26,065 nucleotides of DNA from a virus: the IMG/VR virus record IMGVR_UViG_3300030419_007340, positions 1 through 26,065 of that record, one strand, 5' to 3'. The notes under the pieces were generated by a model. That model was not told the origin of the DNA. It searched no databases and saw only the letters and a list, made by a program, of their open reading frames with translations. The position numbers were made by a program, and so were the translations under genes. Position 1 is the first letter of the stretch. Each line of letters begins with the position of its first letter. Below are positions 1,893 to 19,555 of this stretch, piece by piece.

Positions 1893-3719
1893 ATGGCAGA
1901 GATACCTATTTGGACAGGAAATGCAACTTTTACAACAGGTAAAACAGCATTTGGATTTTATGATTATGAAGATCCCAATACTAGAGGATCAGGTTCGTCT
2001 ACTTTTGATGAAGATGCTCCTAAAGTAGCAGATTGGTGTGCTAAACGTTTAGGATATCCTCTTGTAGATATAGAATTACAAGATACTAATTTTTTTACTG
2101 CTTTTGAAGAAGCAGTAAGTGAATATGGAGCTCAAGTTTATCAATTTCAAATTATAAATAATTTATGGAGAGTTAAAGGATATAGTACTGCTTCTGAACA
2201 TAAAGATGGTTTTAATCAAATAGATTTGTCCGATGTTTATGGTAGTTCTGAAGGAGGAGGGGCATCAGTAGGAGGAGGATCATCTGGTGGAGGTGGTGGA
2301 AGTTATGGAGAAAAAGTATATTCAGCTTCTTTAGATGTAAAAAAAGGAACCCAAAAATATGATTTATTATCTAGTACTCCTGGATATGCTTCTACAACTT
2401 TAGAATGGGGAGGATCCGGTTTTGAATTATCTCACTCCCAATCAATCGTTATAACGGATACAAACGGGGTTACAGTTCATTACAGAGCTACAACAGGATC
2501 ATCAGCAGGAGGATGGATAGAAGGAGCAAATGAGGGAATAAATCCATCAGTAGGAGTAGCAGGAAATATGACAACACAATCAGGAGAATATCGCGAATAT
2601 ATTCATATAAGTGCAAGTGTAGGTGAATTTGTTACAGGTAGTTATGGAGGTTATGCTACAACAACTGATGATCCTGACGGAGTTTATTCTAATCCTGATG
2701 GTTTAAATGGTGTACAAGGAAGTGCAGGCAATTCAGCTTTATCAGCAAGTATAGATTCTTTCTTAAAAACATTACAACACCCAAGTGGTCGACATAAAAA
2801 TTCATTTATTGTTAGTTCTTCTCATAATGCAGATAAAACAATATATGAAATAAAATTAACCCAAAGAACTGAAGCTACAATATCAACTCTTCCCCTTACA
2901 CTCGCAAATTCAGAAGTAACTATAACAAGCTTTTCAGGAGGTACTTCAGGATTAAGTTTTGAAGCTTCTGGTTCAGCAATACAAGCAGGGAAAAAAAGAA
3001 TAAATGTTAAAAAAATATTCCACCATCAACCTGCAGCTATAAATAGATATTTTGATCCTTATGCGGGTACAGGTACAGGAATTCAATCATTAATGCAAAC
3101 TTTTGGATTTGGTAATTATTCACCAGGTGTGAATTTTATGTTAATGCCTATGTATTTTGATGCTTTAAAACTACAAGCAATCGAGATGAATGATAAAATA
3201 AGAAAATCAGCTTATCATTTTGAAATAAATGCAGGTAGATATTTAAAATTATTTCCTATACCTACAAGAGACTACACATTATGGTTTGAATATACCATAG
3301 CAAATCAATCTCAAGATTTAACAATAGATGATACAGCAGATGAAGGTGAAGATAATGAAAAAGATAGAGGTACAATTACAGATATGTCAAATGTTCCTTA
3401 TAAAAGACCAGTATATAGCTACATTAATGAACCTGGAAGACAATGGATCAGAAAATATTGTTTAGCTATATGTAAGGAAATGCTAGGGGGTATTAGGGGT
3501 AAATACCAAACAGTACCTATTCCTGGGTCCGAAACTACTTTAGACCACAGTAGATTAATAAGTGAAGCTGTTGCAGAAAAAGAAGCATTAATATTACAAT
3601 TAAGAGAAGATTTAGAAGCAACTACTACACTTAGTCAATCAACAAGAGCAGCAGATGAAAGTGCTGCAACCCAAACACAATATTCGTTAGATAATCCTTA
3701 TCAAATTTATATACATTAA
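1893..3719 (+). CDS. 13: Neck / head-completion protein (T4 gp13-like) with an inserted beta-rich domain
   Basis: Predicted to sit at the head-tail connector and close the filled head. The N-terminal helical part (about 40-95, with 'WCAKRLGYPLVDIEL') and the C-terminal part resemble gp13-type connector proteins. In the latter, 'YSYINEPGRQWIRKYCLAI' is followed by 'GGIRGKY', 'PIPGSETTLD' and an EA..E...L...L helix. At 608 residues it is about twice T4 gp13 (309). Most of the excess is a roughly 200-residue block (about 164-366) beginning after a Gly/Ser-rich linker (119-138) and interrupting a segment that appears to resume at 'KKRINVKKIFHHQPAA'. The block shows an 'IVITDTNGVTVHYRA...' opening, a central helix 'SALSASIDSFLKTL' and a closing 'VTITSFSGG', a pattern seen in domains of other marine virion proteins. 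Its stop overlaps the next start (TAATG). The gp13 assignment is by motif and by gp14/gp15 downstream. Confidence 0.72.
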   Translation: MAEIPIWTGNATFTTGKTAFGFYDYEDPNTRGSGSSTFDEDAPKVADWCAKRLGYPLVDIELQDTNFFTAFEEAVSEYGAQVYQFQIINNLWRVKGYSTASEHKDGFNQIDLSDVYGSSEGGGASVGGGSSGGGGGSYGEKVYSASLDVKKGTQKYDLLSSTPGYASTTLEWGGSGFELSHSQSIVITDTNGVTVHYRATTGSSAGGWIEGANEGINPSVGVAGNMTTQSGEYREYIHISASVGEFVTGSYGGYATTTDDPDGVYSNPDGLNGVQGSAGNSALSASIDSFLKTLQHPSGRHKNSFIVSSSHNADKTIYEIKLTQRTEATISTLPLTLANSEVTITSFSGGTSGLSFEASGSAIQAGKKRINVKKIFHHQPAAINRYFDPYAGTGTGIQSLMQTFGFGNYSPGVNFMLMPMYFDALKLQAIEMNDKIRKSAYHFEINAGRYLKLFPIPTRDYTLWFEYTIANQSQDLTIDDTADEGEDNEKDRGTITDMSNVPYKRPVYSYINEPGRQWIRKYCLAICKEMLGGIRGKYQTVPIPGSETTLDHSRLISEAVAEKEALILQLREDLEATTTLSQSTRAADESAATQTQYSLDNPYQIYIH

Positions 3720-5612: not shown

Positions 5613-7256
5613 ATGGCAAAAGTAAATAAAACAATATTAAAAACATATTTTGAATCAGGAGATATACCTACACAAAATAATTATATAGATTTAATAGATT
5701 CACAATTTAATTTAGCAGAAACATCTTTACAGATAATAAGTGGTACTCTTAGTGCTTCTGCAGCTAATTTTGAATATTTAAACTTAAAAAAAGCATATTT
5801 ACCCGGTGTAGGAGTGGGTGAAGCTAAAGTAGGTTCAACTTTTGCTATTGGTAGAACTTTAGAAATATCAGGTTCTGTAATAGCAGATACAGGATCATTT
5901 AGTCATTTATCTATAACTCAAGGTACTGTAAGTTCAAGTGGAGGAGTAGTAACACACCATGTAACTGCTTCAGGTAATGTAAGTTCAAGTAGTACAGGAT
6001 CCTTTGGTCATATTCGCACTCCTGTAATAAGCTCACCGGCTTTAGTTAATATTATTGGAGGAAGTAATGGTATAAAATTAACAGGACATGCAATAACATC
6101 ATCAGCTGTAATAACTTCAAGTAGAGGCATAACAGCAAGTGCTGCTGTATTTTCAGGCCATGTAACAGCATCTAATATAAAAGCTACTGGTGAATATTAT
6201 ATAACTTCGAATAACTTACCAGTGGTGACCTTTACCTCAGGAGAATACATATTTGGTGATACTGGTGGAAGTGGTACTGCAAACAAAGTCCAAATACTTG
6301 GAACTAATTTCAAACTAAATGGAAGCCTAACAGCCTCTGCAATTAGTTCAAGTACAGGTATAACAGCCAGTGCTGCTTTATTCTCTGGAAATGTAACCTC
6401 TTCAGGTAATATAAGTTCAAGTGCAACCATAACAGGTCTTACAGGTTCTTTTGGGTATGTAGATGGAACTAATATTAATTTTACAAGTATTACTGCAAGT
6501 GGAGATTTACTACTTACTACGGGTAGTAGTGGTATTAGATCAGCAGGATCTCTGATAGTAACACTTGAAGATATAACTAATTTAGGTGCATCTACTGATT
6601 TTCAAATTAAATATGGAGTTTCAGATTCAACAATATTTAAAGTTGATGAAAGTGGGTTTGTATATCTTTATGGTGGTATTGTTTTTGGTGAAGGAGCAGA
6701 TCAAAACTTTACATCTGATGGTAATATGACTTTTGTATTAGATTATGATGATGATGAAACAGGCCAAAGTTTCACATTTAAAAACAAAAACACAGTATTA
6801 ATGGAGTTAGATGAATCCGATGGGTTAAATGTTTCAGCTAATGTAACAGGTTCTAACGTTAAGTTTGACACTATCACTTGTGGAAAAATTTCATCATCAA
6901 ATATAATAAGCTCAAGTGCTCATATAAGTTCAAGATACAATATATTAGGTTATGAAAATGTTAATGGAGGTAATGGAGTAGGAGCCGCAACAACATTAAA
7001 TCCAGATGTCGGTGTTTCTTTTTGCAATACAGATAGTGCAGAAAATTATTTTACTTTAAGTGATGGAGTTTCAGGACAAGTTAAACATATAGTACATAAA
7101 AGTCGAACAAACAGTGTTGATATGGTTTTAAGACCCCAAAATTTGGCAGCAGGTACAACTCTAACATCAGACAGAGAAGGAAGGGGAATTACATTAATAT
7201 TTGGTCAATCTGCTTGGCATGTAATAGGAGATTTGGGTGAATTTGTATTAGCGTAA
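5613..7256 (+). CDS. Modular tail fibre protein 1
   Basis: A 547-residue beta-rich fibre, probably trimeric, exposed on the virion and involved in host recognition. The N-terminus 'TYFESGDIPTQNNYIDLIDS' (about 11-30) is a virion-attachment type motif often found in phage and Bacteroidota proteins of this kind. The shaft consists of irregular repeats of the type I-T-A-S-G-x-I-S-S-S, with several copies of the DNA word TAAGTTCAAGT (5929, 5980, 6412). The C-terminal domain (about 460-547), ending 'GRGITLIFGQSAWHVIG', resembles a common marine fibre tip with an 'ITLLF...AWHL' finish. It lies 4 nt after the gp15-like gene and one base before the next gene, so it is co-transcribed with both. The exact receptor and location on the tail are unknown. 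Confidence 0.82.
   Translation: MAKVNKTILKTYFESGDIPTQNNYIDLIDSQFNLAETSLQIISGTLSASAANFEYLNLKKAYLPGVGVGEAKVGSTFAIGRTLEISGSVIADTGSFSHLSITQGTVSSSGGVVTHHVTASGNVSSSSTGSFGHIRTPVISSPALVNIIGGSNGIKLTGHAITSSAVITSSRGITASAAVFSGHVTASNIKATGEYYITSNNLPVVTFTSGEYIFGDTGGSGTANKVQILGTNFKLNGSLTASAISSSTGITASAALFSGNVTSSGNISSSATITGLTGSFGYVDGTNINFTSITASGDLLLTTGSSGIRSAGSLIVTLEDITNLGASTDFQIKYGVSDSTIFKVDESGFVYLYGGIVFGEGADQNFTSDGNMTFVLDYDDDETGQSFTFKNKNTVLMELDESDGLNVSANVTGSNVKFDTITCGKISSSNIISSSAHISSRYNILGYENVNGGNGVGAATTLNPDVGVSFCNTDSAENYFTLSDGVSGQVKHIVHKSRTNSVDMVLRPQNLAAGTTLTSDREGRGITLIFGQSAWHVIGDLGEFVLA
5929..5990 (+). repeat. TAAGTTCAAGT repeats in fibre 1 (two adjacent copies)
   Basis: Exact copies of the 11-nt word lie at 5929-5939 and 5980-5990, with another at 6412-6422 and near copies at 6112 (one base changed) and 6907. 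They encode I/V-S-S-S and use the same AGT-TCA-AGT codons each time. Confidence 0.8.
6338..6422 (+). repeat. 85-nt block duplicated in fibre 2 (copy A)
   Basis: Aligned by eye with 9311-9395 without gaps, with about 14 mismatches in 85 (roughly 84% identity). Both copies encode an AISSSTGITAS-type segment followed by NVTSSGN. Confidence 0.75.
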
Positions 7257-8195: not shown

Positions 8196-10196
8196 ATGGC
8201 ATTAAACGATCTAACGAATCAGAACATACAGGATACTTACCAAAAAGTAGTCCAAACAGATGGAGTCAATCTTGCTGACGGAACTGGAAGCGCATTACCT
8301 ATAAAATTTGATGGACCTGATCTTATAGTTTCAGGAGCTCTTAGAGCCCAATCTTATATAGTTTCCGAAAGTGTAGTTAATGTTTCTTCAGGATCTACAA
8401 TTTTTGGTGATTCTACAGACGATTCACACACATTTAAAGGAAATATAACTGCATCTGGAACAATAAGTTCAAGTAATACTATAACTGCTAATAAGTTAGC
8501 TATAAATGATGATTGTACAATAGAGGATGGAAATATTACAATACTAAATAACTTATCTGCTGGAAATTCTCAAATTAATGATCTACAATTACTTAGAGGT
8601 AAAATAAAATTTGAGGGTAACGTAACAGCATCGGGTCATATAAGTTCAAGTGAAACAATACATGCAATAGATTATTATGATAATGGAACAAATATAAATA
8701 CAATATATTCTCCTATAGCAGGAGGTACAGATATAGTAACTGTAGGAACAATTGGAACTGGAGTTTGGCAAGGAACAACTATTCAAAGCCAATATTTAGA
8801 TGGAGATACGGCTCATTTATCTACAGATCAAACATTTACAGGAAAAAAGACATTTACCTCTGCTATTACTTCATCCCATATAAGTTCAAGTGCAACATTA
8901 ACAGCAAATCTAATTAATTTACCAGATGCCGATTCTACAATTACGACTGCTACAGCTTCATTAGCGTATATTATGTCAGAACCAGACACATCAGACCCTA
9001 AAGATACAAAAATAAGACTATCTAATGATGCTATGCAGGTTACTGTAGGTAATCTCAGATTTATAAACTTATATGAATACGGAACCGGAAATAGTAGTAT
9101 CGATATAAATCCAGAAAAAGAAGATATAAATTTCAGAGTTAGAGGTGATAATAATAATGATTTAATATGGACAGATGCAGGAGCAGATAAAGTAGCAATA
9201 GGAACAGGCACAGTTGGTGACTCTTTATTAACAGTTGATGGTGATATAACACTAACAAATATAACCTCCTCAGGCACAATAAGCGCTAGTGGAATGATCC
9301 AAACAGCAGGTGCAATCAGCTCAAGTACTGGTATAACAGCAAGTAATGCATTTTTTTCAGGTAATGTAACCTCCTCAGGTAACCTAAGTTCAAGTCTAGG
9401 TAAGGCAAGATTTGGGGGAGGGTATTATACTCAAACTGCAAGATTTGTAGATGCATCTACAAATAATGCAGCTATCCAAAAATCTGATGGTGGTGAATTA
9501 GATACATTACAGTTAAAGACAGCTGAGACACAAGTTAATAATCTTAAAACAAGTGGCCATATTACAGCATCAGGAATTATAAGTTCAAGTAACAGTTTAG
9601 TAACAAACCATATAACAGCATCAGGTAATATAAGTTCAAGTGGTGGTAATATAATAGCAAATTTCCCAGATACAAACGATGATGCTGATCATTATCCTAC
9701 TGTAGTAACATCTCAAAATTCTACATTAGAAACCCAAAATTCATTATCAATAAATCCTTCAACCAATACTGTTAAAATCGCACTAAGAAATATCCAAGTA
9801 TCTACAACAGGAGACCACAACGTAGGTACAGGTGATGTTGTATTTTTTGGGGGAGGCAGTACAACACAAGGAAATATATGTTATTTACAAGCAAACGGTG
9901 AATGGGGAGATGCCCTAGCAGACGCTACAAATACATCAACACAACTATTAGCAATAGCTCTAGGAGATGACCCTGATGTTGATGGAATGTTATTAAGAGG
10001 AATGATAACTTTAGATCATGATGTGGGAAATAATCAAGGTGTACCACTATATTTATCAGATACTGCTGCAGGACAAGCAACTGTAACCGCTCCTAGTTCA
10101 AATAATGATGTAGTAAGAGTTATAGGATATAATATGGGGGATGATGATGAGATATGGTTTTGTCCAGATAATACATGGGTAGTAGTAAGTGCATAA
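8196..10196 (+). CDS. Modular tail fibre protein 2
   Basis: A 666-residue fibre protein and the largest of the three in the cluster. The N-terminal segment 'NIQDTYQKVVQTDG' with 'LADGTGSALPIKFDG' and 'LRAQSYIVSESVVNVSSGST' resembles the attachment end of many uncultured marine T4-like fibre proteins. The shaft has many T-A-S-G-x-I-S-S-S repeats encoded by near-identical DNA (TAAGTTCAAGT at 8464, 8641, 8881, 9385, 9580 and 9631). A distinct C-terminal domain (about 540-666) contains 'VDGMLLRGMITLDHDVG', 'VPLYLSDTAAGQATVTAPS' and 'VVRVIGY', and probably forms the trimeric tip. An 85-nt block (9311-9395) is about 84% identical to one in fibre 1. The start at 8196 (MALNDLT) is preferred; the ATG at 8186 is in another frame. 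Confidence 0.82.
   Translation: MALNDLTNQNIQDTYQKVVQTDGVNLADGTGSALPIKFDGPDLIVSGALRAQSYIVSESVVNVSSGSTIFGDSTDDSHTFKGNITASGTISSSNTITANKLAINDDCTIEDGNITILNNLSAGNSQINDLQLLRGKIKFEGNVTASGHISSSETIHAIDYYDNGTNINTIYSPIAGGTDIVTVGTIGTGVWQGTTIQSQYLDGDTAHLSTDQTFTGKKTFTSAITSSHISSSATLTANLINLPDADSTITTATASLAYIMSEPDTSDPKDTKIRLSNDAMQVTVGNLRFINLYEYGTGNSSIDINPEKEDINFRVRGDNNNDLIWTDAGADKVAIGTGTVGDSLLTVDGDITLTNITSSGTISASGMIQTAGAISSSTGITASNAFFSGNVTSSGNLSSSLGKARFGGGYYTQTARFVDASTNNAAIQKSDGGELDTLQLKTAETQVNNLKTSGHITASGIISSSNSLVTNHITASGNISSSGGNIIANFPDTNDDADHYPTVVTSQNSTLETQNSLSINPSTNTVKIALRNIQVSTTGDHNVGTGDVVFFGGGSTTQGNICYLQANGEWGDALADATNTSTQLLAIALGDDPDVDGMLLRGMITLDHDVGNNQGVPLYLSDTAAGQATVTAPSSNNDVVRVIGYNMGDDDEIWFCPDNTWVVVSA
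8464..9641 (+). repeat. TAAGTTCAAGT repeat series in fibre 2
   Basis: Six exact copies of the 11-nt word start at 8464, 8641, 8881, 9385, 9580 and 9631, usually preceded by an ACAGCATCAGG-like stretch. They are spaced irregularly, so they are a dispersed coding repeat, not an array. Confidence 0.85.
9311..9395 (+). repeat. 85-nt block duplicated from/to fibre 1 (copy B)
   Basis: The partner of 6338-6422. Both lie in the shaft and in the same reading frame, which allows recombination between fibre genes without loss of frame. Confidence 0.75.
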
Positions 10197-11327: not shown

Positions 11328-12959
11328 ATGGCTATAAAAATTAAACATACAGACCCTAAATCTACTGATTTTGGACCTAATGATATTGTTATTAATGTTA
11401 AAGAAGGTACTTTATTCTATAAATCTGAAAAAAATATATTCAAATTAACAGGAGATAATTTAGATAAAACAAATGATCTCATTACTTTAAATTCAAATAT
11501 ATCTGCATCAAAAGCCTTTTTTGCTACTCCTGGAATAGGAGGTATGGTTATAGGATCTCAAAATAATAATGTATTTGAGGTAGGAACAAAAACATTAGTA
11601 GTAGGAGGATCAATAATACCTTCATCTTCTCTTTCTTCAAAATATGATTTAGGAAGTCTTGATGAACCTTGGAAAGACATATATCTCTCATCTGATTCTT
11701 TACATTTTGTTAAACACGGTAAAGGTATAGGATTTTCTCAAATAGAAAATGGCTTTATAATAGAAGGTTATAGTATTCAATCAATAAAAGAATCAAAAAC
11801 CTTATCACTTACACATGACCCTAATCCTAATGAAAAATTTGATAATTTTAAAATAGGAGGCGCTGGATTAGTAGTAGAAGGCTCCATCACAGCATCAGGA
11901 CATACAATAAAAGCAACTACGGGATCATTTGATCATTTTATAACATTAGGTGACACAATTGAATTTATAAATAAAACTACAAAAGCAGTAGAAGGTTTTT
12001 TAAAATTCGATACAAGTGATGGATTACAAATACAATCTGCTGATAGAAACCCAACAAGAGCAAAATTTCGAGATATATATGCAACAAATATAACATCATC
12101 AGGCAATATAAGTTGTAGTGGAACTGTAATAGCTGACTCTTTCCAATCAACAGGAGAAGATGATCAATTAGACTTTTCAGACCATATAAATGTAAGAGGA
12201 AATATAACATCTTCAAACCATATAAAAGCAGTAGGATTTACAGGTAGCTTAACAGGAGATGTTATAGGAGAAGCAACAAATGTATCAAATGCTTTAACAA
12301 TTGGTACAGGCGTAGATCTAAATTCAGGAGTCAATTGGGATGGAACACATGCTAGAACATTAAGCTTAGATCTTACAGAAGTTGGTTTTGGTGGAGGAGC
12401 GAATAGACTAATAACAGATGATGGTGATGGTACTGTATCAACAGAAGCAAATTTAACATATGATGGTGATGGAATAAATTTAACTGGCCATATAACAGCT
12501 TCAGGTGCTATAACAGCAAGTCAATTTGAAGGTAGTAATATAGGATCTATATATGAAACTTACATTTATATAACCCCAGCTGAATTTTTTCCCGACGATA
12601 TTACAGATTATTCTCGTACTAGAGCTTCTGGAATAGGAGGAAATGGTGCTTATTTAGCAGATGGGGGTAGTATAAATGTATATACTGCGATGAAAATGAT
12701 CCCAAAAGGATACAAAGCAACAAAAACAATGGTATATGATAATAATCCAGCAGCTTCTACATATACAACATATTCTAGTAGTGTCAGTGTTACTACAGCA
12801 GGTCTTAACGCAGGTATATGCGGAACAGCAACAGCAACAAATACAGAAAAAGACATAACAGATATTACAGGAGGAAGTGGAGTTTATTGTATATTAAATT
12901 GGACACCAGCAGCGGCAAATAGATGTTATGGGGGTTATATTAGATTAGAAAAAACTTAA
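11328..12959 (+). CDS. Modular tail fibre protein 3
   Basis: A 543-residue fibre protein. Its N-terminus, 'MAIKIKHTDPKSTDFGPNDI' followed by 'VKEGTLFYKSEKNIFKL', differs from those of fibres 1 and 2, so it probably attaches to a different partner. The shaft has fewer and more divergent repeats (ITSSGNISCSG, ITASGAITAS) and lacks the exact TAAGTTCAAGT word. Before the tip is a 'GSLTGDVIGEATNVSNAL' and 'GTHARTLSLDL' segment typical of phage fibre proteins. The C-terminal domain (about 405-543) begins 'TYIYITPAEFFPDD' and ends 'CYGGYIRLEKT', probably the trimeric tip. It is encoded alone, with promoter-like boxes on both sides. The opening residues and lack of another nearby Met support this start. 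Confidence 0.8.
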   Translation: MAIKIKHTDPKSTDFGPNDIVINVKEGTLFYKSEKNIFKLTGDNLDKTNDLITLNSNISASKAFFATPGIGGMVIGSQNNNVFEVGTKTLVVGGSIIPSSSLSSKYDLGSLDEPWKDIYLSSDSLHFVKHGKGIGFSQIENGFIIEGYSIQSIKESKTLSLTHDPNPNEKFDNFKIGGAGLVVEGSITASGHTIKATTGSFDHFITLGDTIEFINKTTKAVEGFLKFDTSDGLQIQSADRNPTRAKFRDIYATNITSSGNISCSGTVIADSFQSTGEDDQLDFSDHINVRGNITSSNHIKAVGFTGSLTGDVIGEATNVSNALTIGTGVDLNSGVNWDGTHARTLSLDLTEVGFGGGANRLITDDGDGTVSTEANLTYDGDGINLTGHITASGAITASQFEGSNIGSIYETYIYITPAEFFPDDITDYSRTRASGIGGNGAYLADGGSINVYTAMKMIPKGYKATKTMVYDNNPAASTYTTYSSSVSVTTAGLNAGICGTATATNTEKDITDITGGSGVYCILNWTPAAANRCYGGYIRLEKT

Positions 12960-16062: not shown

Positions 16063-16563
16063 ATGGGAATAATAGATTCAACAGGGGGGATGATGTTTAC
16101 AGCGTTTGAACCTAAACTACAAAACAGGTTTTTAATGTCAATTGATGACGGAGCAGGAAGTATTCCAGGATATCTTATTAAAAAAATATCTAGACCTAGT
16201 GTTACTTTTGGAGAAGTAGTTCTTGATCATATTAATGTGAAAAGAAAACTTAAAGGTAAAGCAAATTGGGAAAACATTACATGTGATCTTTATGATCCCG
16301 TAACCCCATCAGGCGCCCAAGCAGTAATGGAATGGATTCGTTTATCACATGAATCTGTAACAGGTAGAGATGGTTATTCTGATTTCTATAAAAAAGATAT
16401 ATTAATTAAAACCTTAGGTCCTGTAGGAGATATTGTTGAAGAGTGGAAATTAAAAGGAGCTTATTGTCAATCAGCTAATTTTGGAGATATGTCTTGGGAT
16501 ACAGATACTCCTGTTAATATTTCATTAGTTATAGTAATGGATTACGCTATCTTAAATTACTAA
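16063..16563 (+). CDS. 19: Tail tube protein (T4 gp19-like)
   Basis: Forms the inner tube through which DNA passes. Length, 166 residues, is almost that of T4 gp19 (163). The sequence starts 'MMFTAFEPKLQNRFLMSID' and continues 'GYLIKKISRPSV', 'VKRKLKGKANWENITCDLYD' and 'WIRLSHESVTGRDGYSDFYK', ending with a 'NISLVIVMDYAIL' strand. These are hallmarks of the gp19/phage tail tube family. The position directly after the sheath gene confirms it. It is flanked by its own box and a terminator, so it is probably a separate, strongly expressed unit. Confidence 0.96.
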   Translation: MGIIDSTGGMMFTAFEPKLQNRFLMSIDDGAGSIPGYLIKKISRPSVTFGEVVLDHINVKRKLKGKANWENITCDLYDPVTPSGAQAVMEWIRLSHESVTGRDGYSDFYKKDILIKTLGPVGDIVEEWKLKGAYCQSANFGDMSWDTDTPVNISLVIVMDYAILNY

Positions 16564-16657: not shown

Positions 16658-17407
16658 ATGGATAAAACAAAACAATTATTTCCTGCAGAGGAAGTTACTC
16701 TACCTTCAAAAGGTTTACTTTACCCAAAAGACTCTCCATTAAGAAAAGGAATTATAGAAATGAAATATATGACTGCTAAAGAAGAAGACATATTAACAAA
16801 TCCTAATTTAATCGAAAATGGAACAGTAATTGATAAATTATTAAAATCTCTTATAGTGACTGATATCAACTATAATACCTTACTAACAGGCGACAAAGAT
16901 GCTATTTTAGTTGCTGCTCGTGTTTTAGGTTATGGTAAAGATTATACTTTTAATCATAGAGGAGAAGAAATTAACATTGATTTAACTACTATTAAAGATA
17001 AACAATTAGATGAAAAGTTAGTAATAGATGGTAAAAATGAATTTTCATATACTCTCCCTACAGCTAAAAAAGAAATAACTTTTAAATTTCTAACTCACGG
17101 TGATGAACAAAAAATCCAAAGAGAATTAAAAGGTCTTAAAAAACTTAATAAAGAGGTAACTAGAGAATTATCAACTCGAATGAAATATGTTATCACTTCA
17201 ATAGATGGAGATTATGAGCAAAAAACTATTAGAGAATTTGTAGATACTCAGTTTTTAGCTAGAGATGCAAGAGAATTAAGAAACTATATTAAAAAAATCC
17301 AACCAAGTGTCGATTTATCATATGATTATGAAGACCAGAGTGGTAATACTGTTAAGATCAGTATCCCTGTTGGTATTGGCTTTTTTTGGCCTGACGCCAC
17401 AATATAG
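16658..17407 (+). CDS. Tail assembly chaperone / baseplate hub assembly protein (T4 gp26/gp51-like), short form
   Basis: A 249-residue protein lying between the tail tube and tape measure genes, the usual position of the tail assembly chaperone. 'LPSKGLLYP' (15-23) and 'MKYMTAKEEDILTNPNLIEN' (about 34-53) with 'DKDAILVAARVLGYGKDY' and the C-terminal 'ISIPVGIGFFWPDA' match the conserved pattern of gp26-type proteins in T4-like marine phages. Many of those carry Cys-x-x-Cys pairs in the middle and near the end; here the corresponding positions lack cysteines. The final codons cross a run of seven T and are followed by a TAG. A conserved-looking extension is encoded in the +1 frame (17388-17645), so this is probably the short product of a frameshifting gene, like lambda gpG versus gpGT. 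T4 naming of the homologue is uncertain. Confidence 0.75.
   Translation: MDKTKQLFPAEEVTLPSKGLLYPKDSPLRKGIIEMKYMTAKEEDILTNPNLIENGTVIDKLLKSLIVTDINYNTLLTGDKDAILVAARVLGYGKDYTFNHRGEEINIDLTTIKDKQLDEKLVIDGKNEFSYTLPTAKKEITFKFLTHGDEQKIQRELKGLKKLNKEVTRELSTRMKYVITSIDGDYEQKTIREFVDTQFLARDARELRNYIKKIQPSVDLSYDYEDQSGNTVKISIPVGIGFFWPDATI
17378..17407 (+). other. Candidate programmed frameshift site (T7 slippery run before a stop)
   Basis: The zero frame reads GGC TTT TTT TGG and ends at TAG (17405-17407). Skipping one base after the second TTT (+1), or slipping back two (-2), enters the downstream frame and avoids the stop. A small potential hairpin TGGC-CTGAC-GCCA (17387-17399) lies right after the run. The two modes would give 328 or 329 residues. 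Confidence 0.6.
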
Positions 17408-17645
17408 GAAACTTATATTTGATCAAGTGCATGACCTAGTATTCCATGGTGGTGGTGGATTTCAATACTACGATGTCTATAATATGCCTGTTTGGTTAAG
17501 AAGATTCCATACTCATAAAATTAGTGAGTATAACAAAAAACAAAATGAAGAAATGGAAAAAGCTAAAAGAGGTCCAAGCTCAAGTCAACCCTCAATACAG
17601 CGCCCCAATATAGATCCATCTTCTGTGTATAATTTTAGAAAGTAA
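17388..17645 (+). CDS. Frameshift extension of the tail assembly chaperone
   Basis: Eighty-five codons in the +1 frame relative to the upstream gene, with the soluble, helical sequence 'YRKLIFDQVHDLVFHGGGGF', then 'YYDVYNMPVWLRRFHTHKIS' and a charged tail 'KKQNEEMEKAKRG'. The 'YNMPV.LR.F...K' pattern is typical of the small C-terminal part of tail chaperones. The protein-like region begins before any plausible ATG. The frame can be read from an ATG at 17307, but residues before the T run are then an out-of-frame reading of the chaperone's end and look hydrophobic and unnatural. Production by frameshift is therefore preferred. The tape measure gene follows, as in other phages where the extended chaperone binds the tape measure. 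Confidence 0.7.
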   Translation, partial: GLTPQYRKLIFDQVHDLVFHGGGGFQYYDVYNMPVWLRRFHTHKISEYNKKQNEEMEKAKRGPSSSQPSIQRPNIDPSSVYNFRK

Positions 17646-17698: not shown

Positions 17699-19555
17699 AT
17701 GGCAAGAAAACAAAATACTAATTCTCAACTAGAAAAAGGAATAAAACTTATTCAGGATCAATCAGCTGAACTTTTAAAGTTAGCAGGTGTATATGATTCT
17801 ATGTATAATTCTATCAGTAAAATTAATGAAGGTTTAGGATCAACTGCTTCTATTCAAAACAAACTTAATAAAGGACAAAATGCCTCTAAACAAATTGATG
17901 ATGGTCTTATGAAAAATAAAGCCAAAATGCAAGCTTTAGCAATGAAGATGAAGACGATGAAAAAACATGGTTTAAAGTTTGATATGGAAGAGGCAAGAAA
18001 TGCAAGAAAAAAACTTCAAGTTGAAAAAGATATACTACTACAACAAAAAGACCAACAAAATAGCTTAGAACATCAAGGAAAGGTATTAAAAGAAAATCTT
18101 AAAGGTTTTATGAAAAGTAAGTATCTAGCGGGAGGAATAACTGCTATGATGACTAGTGGTGTATATGAATTAGATAAATTATGGAAAGGATATAATAAAA
18201 CTTATGGTTTTACTTCTGATATAGCAAAAAGTGTTCATGAACGTACTGAACAATTAGCTTTAGCTTCTCAAAGAGTTAGTATAACTTTTAAAACCCTCCA
18301 TAAAACAATGGCAGGAATAGCAACATCTACAGGACTATACGCAGGAACTTTAAGATCTGATGTCTTAGAAGAAGCTAGTGAGTTATCAAAACTTATGGGA
18401 ATATCTAATAAAGGAATGTCAAATTTAGCTCTCAATGCCCAAAGAACAGGCCAAAATATGGAGGCACAATCCATTTCAATGGTGAAGGGTATAAGAAATG
18501 CTGAAAATATGGTAGGAGCAACTGTAGATATGGAAGTAGCTTTTAAAGCAGCTTCTGAAACAACAGGATTAATAAGAGCTAATATAGGTCGTTCTTATGA
18601 AGAAATAGCAAGAGTAACAGCACAAGCACAAGCATTTGGTTTAACTCTTCAAGATTTAGCAAGTATTAGTTCTAACATGTTAAATTTTCAATCATCCATT
18701 GAAGCAGAACTAACAGCAGAATTATTCATAGGTAAACAACTTAATTTAGAAAAAGCCAGATTATATGCATTAACGGGAGATTATGAATCATTACAAAAAG
18801 AAATAGTAGGCCAATTAGGAAGTGAGTATGAATTTTTAAGAATGAATACCCTACAAAAACAAAAATACGCAGCTGCTTTAGGAATGTCTGTAAATCAAAT
18901 GTCTGATTTAGTTTTGAGAAATGCAGAATTATCAGACATAGAACAACAAGCAAGAGATGCAGGAGATGAACAAACATTAAATATGCTAAAACAAAGAGAT
19001 CTCCAACAACAAATAGCAGATTTTACAGAAAAACTTCAAACTACTTTTATATCACTTGCAAAAGGTCCTTTAGGTAAAGTAGCAGAAGTAATGGCTAAAG
19101 TTTTAAGTAGTACAGAAGCTGTATATGGAATATTAGGATTAATGGCTGTTATGAAGATGGGTTCTATAATAGCATCCTTAAAAATGGTAAGTAAATTTTT
19201 AAGTTTATCTGCTTTAAGAGCTGGTTTTACTATGGCTGCTATGACAGCAGGAATAGGTTTAATTGCTGCTGTTGGAGCTGCAGCTATTTTTGCTGCAGCA
19301 ATGAAAGGTGCAGAAAGTAGAGCAACAGCGGGTGGTGATACTACGGCAGCAAGTGTTAAAAGTTATCAAGGTTTAGGTGATGAAGAAATGGTAACTCTTG
19401 ATAGAGGAGCAGCATTATTCCATTCAGGTGAATCTGTAGTTAGATCAGAAAATTTTGGTAGAATGAATGCTATTTTAGAAAGAATTGATTCATCAATTAA
19501 TAAACAAAAACTAAACATTAACGTAGAATCTCATCATGGTACAAGGTTTAGATAA
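17699..19555 (+). CDS. Tail tape measure protein (T4 gp29-like position)
   Basis: Sets tail length and serves as the core of the assembling tail. It is 618 residues, similar to T4 gp29 (590). The N-terminal third is rich in Lys/Gln and coiled-coil-like (about 1-130). The middle holds long helices with repeated small-residue patterns ('EEASELSKLMGISNKGMSN', 'LASISSNMLNFQSSIEAE'). Two hydrophobic segments (about 473-494 and 510-536, 'GIGLIAAVGAAAIFAAAMK') are typical of tape measure proteins that insert into the host membrane. The C-terminus is 'EEMVTLDRGAALFHSGESVV', a common tape-measure ending. It follows the chaperone and its frameshift extension and precedes baseplate genes. Confidence 0.92.
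   Translation: MARKQNTNSQLEKGIKLIQDQSAELLKLAGVYDSMYNSISKINEGLGSTASIQNKLNKGQNASKQIDDGLMKNKAKMQALAMKMKTMKKHGLKFDMEEARNARKKLQVEKDILLQQKDQQNSLEHQGKVLKENLKGFMKSKYLAGGITAMMTSGVYELDKLWKGYNKTYGFTSDIAKSVHERTEQLALASQRVSITFKTLHKTMAGIATSTGLYAGTLRSDVLEEASELSKLMGISNKGMSNLALNAQRTGQNMEAQSISMVKGIRNAENMVGATVDMEVAFKAASETTGLIRANIGRSYEEIARVTAQAQAFGLTLQDLASISSNMLNFQSSIEAELTAELFIGKQLNLEKARLYALTGDYESLQKEIVGQLGSEYEFLRMNTLQKQKYAAALGMSVNQMSDLVLRNAELSDIEQQARDAGDEQTLNMLKQRDLQQQIADFTEKLQTTFISLAKGPLGKVAEVMAKVLSSTEAVYGILGLMAVMKMGSIIASLKMVSKFLSLSALRAGFTMAAMTAGIGLIAAVGAAAIFAAAMKGAESRATAGGDTTAASVKSYQGLGDEEMVTLDRGAALFHSGESVVRSENFGRMNAILERIDSSINKQKLNINVESHHGTRFR

Follow-up and report, generated by a model that had tools for sequence, protein, structure and literature searches.

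Probable programmed +1 frameshifting in a phage tail assembly chaperone gene of the T4 gp26 family

Introduction

The frameshift that joins the G and T parts of phage tail assembly chaperones is -1, -2 or +1 in different phages, and the 2016 review that states this excepts T4 from G-T frameshifting (PMC5009743). T4 gp26 and gp51 both belong to phrog_150/PF12322, gp51 having an additional C-terminal part. T4-like phages with a short and a fused copy have been reported by Vladimirov, Gautam and Davidson (2022; Virology 566:9-15), as cited in the PRFect paper (PMC10885494). In cyanophages, gp51 was described as about one-fifth the length of other gp51 proteins, with the first ~200 residues missing (Sullivan et al., 2010; PMC3037559); the word 'frameshift' is absent from that gp51 comparison. 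Sites of +1 shifting are hard to recognise, as they follow no general motif.

Here, we analyzed 26,065 nucleotides of viral DNA (IMG/VR record IMGVR_UViG_3300030419_007340; the window), in which a gp26-like gene ends shortly after a run of seven T and a second protein-like frame begins at the same run. Comparison with related sequences shows that the arrangement is genuine and conserved, and indicates that a tail chaperone of the gp26 family is made with a programmed frameshift, most likely +1.

Results

The features of the locus are listed below.

16063..16563, + strand: tail tube protein, immediately upstream (phrog_4542 tail tube, E = 3.3e-26)
16658..17407, + strand: G-type chaperone ORF in the zero frame, 249 aa, C-terminus ...GIGFFWPDATI before the stop (phrog_150 match, AF2/Foldseek)
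17381-17387, + strand: T7 run, within the codons GGC TTT TTT TGG
17381..17389, + strand: putative shift site UUU UUU UGG (all 66 lineages have TTT[T/C]TT; 14 of 15 SP-15-type members have UUU_Y at codon 2)
17387..17407, + strand: short zero-frame tail WPDATI and stop
17388..17645, + strand: T-type domain, 85 aa, +1 frame (GLTPQYRKLIFDQVHDLVFHGGGGF...), translated only after the shift in the proposed model (80 + 80 related loci, codon periodicity)
17405-17407, + strand: TAG stop of the G-type ORF
17699..19555, + strand: probable tape measure protein, immediately downstream (position matches annotated relatives)

The second frame runs for 85 residues from 17388 (GLTPQYRKLIFDQVHDLVFHGGGGFQYYDVYNMPVWLRRF...) to 17645, in phase +1/-2 relative to the G ORF. 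By arithmetic from the coordinates, skipping one base after the second TTT gives GIGFFGLTPQ... and a product of 328 residues. The coordinates given in the original prediction of an apparent frameshift were exact, and its placing of the gene between tail tube and tape measure was likewise confirmed. The tube gene lies upstream. ORF 17699..19555 has no PHROG match; a tail tape measure protein is annotated at the equivalent place in Flavobacterium phage immuto and Listeria phage LIS04. With a tube gene before it and a tape measure gene, as annotated in relatives, after it, the gene occupies the classical place of the G/GT chaperone pair. Searches of Rfam and NCBIfam gave no match. Elsewhere in the window, upstream of the sheath gene, three long ORFs (5613-7256, 8196-10196 and 11328-12959) share repeated ASGxISSS-type motifs and are apparently paralogous fibre-like proteins.

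The G part matches phrog_150 'baseplate hub' over residues 8-242 (E = 3.1e-11). This is the family that holds T4 gp26 and gp51, and the match (E 3e-11) bears out the gp26/gp51-type assignment made from the sequence beforehand. PF12322 was not reached by the window G protein itself; it was reached by its relatives from SP-15 (1.5e-28) and GXN1 (4.3e-25). In Foldseek, the AlphaFold2 model of the G part (pLDDT 91) matched T4-like hub assembly proteins, among them the baseplate hub subunit of SP-15 (TM 0.81); HK97 2ob9, the sole phage chaperone among the listed solved structures, was a weak match (E 1.9, probability 0.21, TM 0.46 of target). The T part resembles DUF6760 (PF20546) at 20.6 bits (E = 4.6e-4), below the curated cut-off of 27, and a fold search with the T domain returned nothing significant. 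T4 gp26 was the only family named by the profile libraries, and the likeness to lambda gpG is one of gene position and arrangement. On the phrog_150 match, we assign the window gene to the T4 gp26 family, in which it would act as a tail assembly chaperone.

Relatives were collected with the second domain alone as query, the T run being excluded. This search found 80 IMG/VR loci, and TTTTTTTGGCC stands directly before or at the start of the second domain in 80 of 80. A profile search gave 80 loci, some on contigs already found, and a search with a divergent member gave 27; automatic site location covered 160 loci, 120 of them distinct, in 66 lineages (less than 80% identity in the second domain). 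The automatic locating pattern itself required TTT[T/C]TT, and the unbiased evidence is the raw listing of loci, in which LR756508 (TTT CTA TTC) is the sole departure among true relatives. A scan with the T domain of LR756508 found nothing, and one with that of RM378 found only RM378 itself. One further locus (L168) was a spurious match and was discarded.

The comparison showed that a slip-prone site in the overlap of the two frames is kept in relatives. TTT[T/C]TT directly precedes the second frame in all 66 lineages, whose second domains diverge by more than 20%, and the offset between the upstream and second frames is constant in every interpretable locus. Codon 1 of the site is TTT in 66 of 66 lineages, codon 2 is TTT in 58 and CTT in 8, and codon 3 is TGG in 64 of 66; the zero-frame stop lies 8 codons from the first TTT in 45 lineages and 6 codons in 19. 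The second frame shows codon periodicity in the relatives, with entropies of 0.83, 0.62 and 1.40 at codon positions 1, 2 and 3. Because of this periodicity and the presence of TTT[T/C]TT in all 66 lineages, we judge the two-frame arrangement to be far beyond chance. A homologue check had been proposed together with the original prediction; its outcome was that the run and both frames are kept throughout, with no member of the clade in which the two parts form a single frame or in which a start codon is obligatory.

Several explanations other than ribosomal shifting were weighed against these data. A separate gene, with its own start or with re-initiation after the zero-frame stop, is suggested by ATG codons upstream in the second frame of the window and by the annotators of Microcystis phage Mel-JY01, who assigned an own start. 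However, 22 of the 66 lineages have no ATG, GTG or TTG in the second frame between the previous in-frame stop and the site, as is also the case in RM378, and in 53 of 66 the T domain has its first ATG at codon 32, where initiation would remove the domain's first helix. Own initiation is therefore no general solution; it would also leave the invariant run unexplained, and we consider a separate gene very unlikely. The earlier statement that no plausible ATG lies ahead of the second frame consequently stands for relatives and fails for the window, whose second frame has upstream ATG, GTG and TTG codons; that the frame cannot start by itself was found in relatives, not for the window sequence alone. 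Transcriptional slippage on T7, adding or removing mRNA bases, would have the homopolymer it needs, but the run is broken in eight lineages (TTTCTT) and reads TTCTTTC in the sister clade described below, with the frames unchanged, neither of which favours polymerase slippage; this reading is highly improbable. As six T would make one frame, a homopolymer error in sequencing or assembly that splits one continuous gene had also been raised. It is excluded for practical purposes, since relatives have the identical arrangement: the same seven positions recur in many separate contigs and in Mel-JY01 and RM378, immuto has TTTCTTT, and protein constraint is seen in both frames around the site.

The direction of the shift had been left open between +1 and -2, which the window clade alone separates poorly. 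A distant sister clade of 15 members, comprising SP-15, LIS04, GXN1 and IMG/VR relatives, has the second domain in the same relative frame. Its site is GAR TT(T/C) TTT, followed by CGT, CAT, CGA or CAC in 14 of 15 members, LIS04 being the exception. Codon 2 is TTT in 15 of 15 against a background of 65% (P = 0.0016, which is overstated, as the P values here treat lineages as independent), and TTC occupies codon 1 in 5 of 15, in line with background codon use (65% TTT). A -2 shift, as known in phage Mu and arteriviruses (PMC5009743), would have the Phe tRNA on the second UUU slip back two bases to give GIGFFFGLTP; the T7 run permits the base pairing, and the invariant TTT that it would need at codon 1 is what the window clade has. 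In the five sister-clade members with TTC at codon 1 (GXN1, L227, L235, L240 and L242), however, such a slip would put tRNA-Phe on UCU, so a -2 shift is not plausible there. For -2, the CTT variants would need a G.U pair at the first position, and CUU_U is a classical +1 site. We regard a -2 shift as unlikely.

Re-pairing from UUU_C to UUC is, on the other hand, perfect for +1. UUU_Ynn is reported to be particularly +1-prone in bacteria, the influenza +1 cassette has UUU_CGU at its core, and the RF2 +1 site is CUU_U, with UUU_U in a minority (PMC5009743); the window clade, with TTT or CTT at codon 2 (58:8 lineages), shows an exchange of the same form as at the RF2 site. These comparisons favour +1 at UUU_Y, with the slip at codon 2, over -2, though with reservations. 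LIS04 (TTT TTT AGT) and LR756508 (TTT CTA TTC) are outliers to the codon-2 UUU/CUU_Y rule; both have UUU_Y at codon 1 and fit only with slippage there. A slip at codon 2 alone does not require codon 1 to be fixed, and codon 1 may contribute to the slip in the window clade because it is TTT in 66 of 66 lineages (P = 7e-6, overstated for the same reason).

The base before the run gave a further indication of direction. Among the 61 lineages in which the preceding amino acid leaves a choice, T before the run was seen 0 times against 39 expected; a T there would complete the -1 heptamer U_UUU_UUU. No comparable depletion was seen at the third positions of codons -7 to -2. This avoidance supports the +1 reading, since a need to prevent -1 slippage at U_UUU_UUU would produce it. 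T before the run is missing from the eight CTT lineages as well, though no -1 heptamer would form in them, so common descent or another effect may contribute. The base is T in -1 relatives (see below) and is not T in the window clade, a contrast that supports selection on direction. Further upstream, T is rarer than expected at the third positions of codons -8, -9 and -11 (11 against 26.6, 14 against 26.2 and 7 against 19.5 expected in 66 lineages), and no element was identified in codons -14 to -8 of these lineages. Downstream of the site, RNAalifold on 54 relatives predicts no pair, so that the small hairpin noted after the T run is not conserved and no conserved stimulator was found there; folding bias is weak (mean z -0.4 to -0.9).

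The wider gp26 family contains other arrangements. NNT TTT TTC or TTT TTT, with the second part in -1, was found in S-SM2, P-SSM2, KVP40, Atu_ph07, PA5oct, P-TIM68, S-RIM8, ACG-2014b, Melnitz-3 and Desulfovibrio phage 7757; the second part is also in -1 in LR756511. In hhalign, the -1-frame domains of cyanophages matched the gp51 C-terminal part at 95.7%, SP-15-type T domains at 91% and the window T domain at 70%; aligned directly, the window T domain and the T4 gp51 C-terminus gave no significant match (1.1%), and the link runs via these intermediates. The alignments support T4 gp26/gp51 as a short and a fused gene in place of a shifted gene, which is apparently already published. Vibrio phages D531 and VP-1 and Aeromonas phage phiA8-29 have no clean slippery heptamer between gp26 and a -1-frame second part, and an overlapping TAATG in D531 and VP-1 suggests re-initiation instead.

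Two bacterial contigs were observed in addition. In one (L173; 647-1194, minus strand), a 123-aa ORF with CxxC stands at the gp26 position of a sheath-tube gene cluster resembling a contractile injection system, and a DUF6760 domain follows in an overlapping -1 frame at TCG GGG GAA TCA TAG. This arrangement was seen at a single locus; a frameshift there, if true, would be of interest. In the other (L174; 871-1626), the equivalent ORF and DUF6760 form one continuous frame (...SFFMLRLTGERRNLLEEVHLIASHYHWSHREILELP...).

Discussion

We propose a programmed +1 ribosomal frameshift in a tail assembly chaperone gene of the T4 gp26 family, carried by a contractile-tailed phage, a reading to which we give a probability of about 0.85. 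Its support consists of the conserved double-frame architecture, the conserved site, relatives without an alternative start, homology and synteny; the ribosomal shifting, the exact codon, the ratio and the chaperone function we infer. Most ribosomes would translate ...GIG-F-F-W-P-D-A-T-I up to the stop and thereby make the short chaperone (G). A fraction would slip +1 with P-site tRNA-Phe on the second UUU, from 17384-17386 to UUU at 17385-17387, and continue with GGC; in sister lineages the re-pairing would be CUU to UUU or UUU to UUC. The zero-frame codon, UGG in the window, would thereby be skipped, and ...GIG-F-F-G-L-T-P-Q... would lead into a G-T fusion of a predicted 328 aa. By analogy with lambda G/GT, G may coat the tape measure and the T part may recruit tail tube subunits.

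Taken jointly, the data could mean that one chaperone family has repeatedly changed its recoding at the same codon pair and that selection on the base before the run maintains the direction of the shift, a reading we hold to be about evenly balanced. Under the same joint reading, the solutions of the family would be +1 at UUU_U, CUU_U or UUU_C in the window and SP-15 clades, -1 at U_UUU_UUC in cyanophages, KVP40 and jumbo phages, and separate short and fused genes in T4, with phage-tail-like bacterial gene clusters possibly holding -1 or single-frame versions. This kind of frameshift has long been known in phages, the usual shift being backward; as far as the open literature searched shows, the site type and direction in the gp26 family and the spread of solutions are new, and no paper on a gp26/gp51 frameshift was found in it. 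The relatives form an extensive natural alignment of a single proposed +1 site, which includes the informative variants UUU_U, CUU_U and UUU_C. As the same family also holds -1 sites and shift-free gene pairs, the choice and switching of direction become testable by comparison.

The annotation of these genes can also be corrected: in the named phages examined, either the fusion is not annotated, or its second half is absent, cut short or assigned a conjectural start. In immuto (L082), the annotated piece of the T domain is just its tail end (3133-3243), entered as a separate hypothetical protein.

Among known systems, lambda gpG/gpGT is alike in having a short ORF before the tape measure gene and a shift near its 3' end that adds a second domain; lambda, however, shifts -1, whereas the window family is best explained by +1 at UUU_U, CUU_U or UUU_C. 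The phage Mu tail chaperone has its second frame in the same relative phase, but the Mu-type -2 shift is disfavoured for the window family by the sister clade. T4 gp26/gp51 shares phrog_150 with the window G protein and differs in having two separate genes, a short gp26 and a longer gp51, without a shift. Cyanophage and KVP40 gp26/'gp51' belong to the same family and hold the same position, and their Phe-Phe site is likewise followed directly by a second part in a different frame; unlike in the window, that frame is -1 and the site U_UUU_UUC. The RF2 +1 site has the identical CTT/TTT exchange at the slipping codon, but RF2 shifts at a stop codon, whereas the A-site codon of the window family is a sense codon (UGG, CGU).
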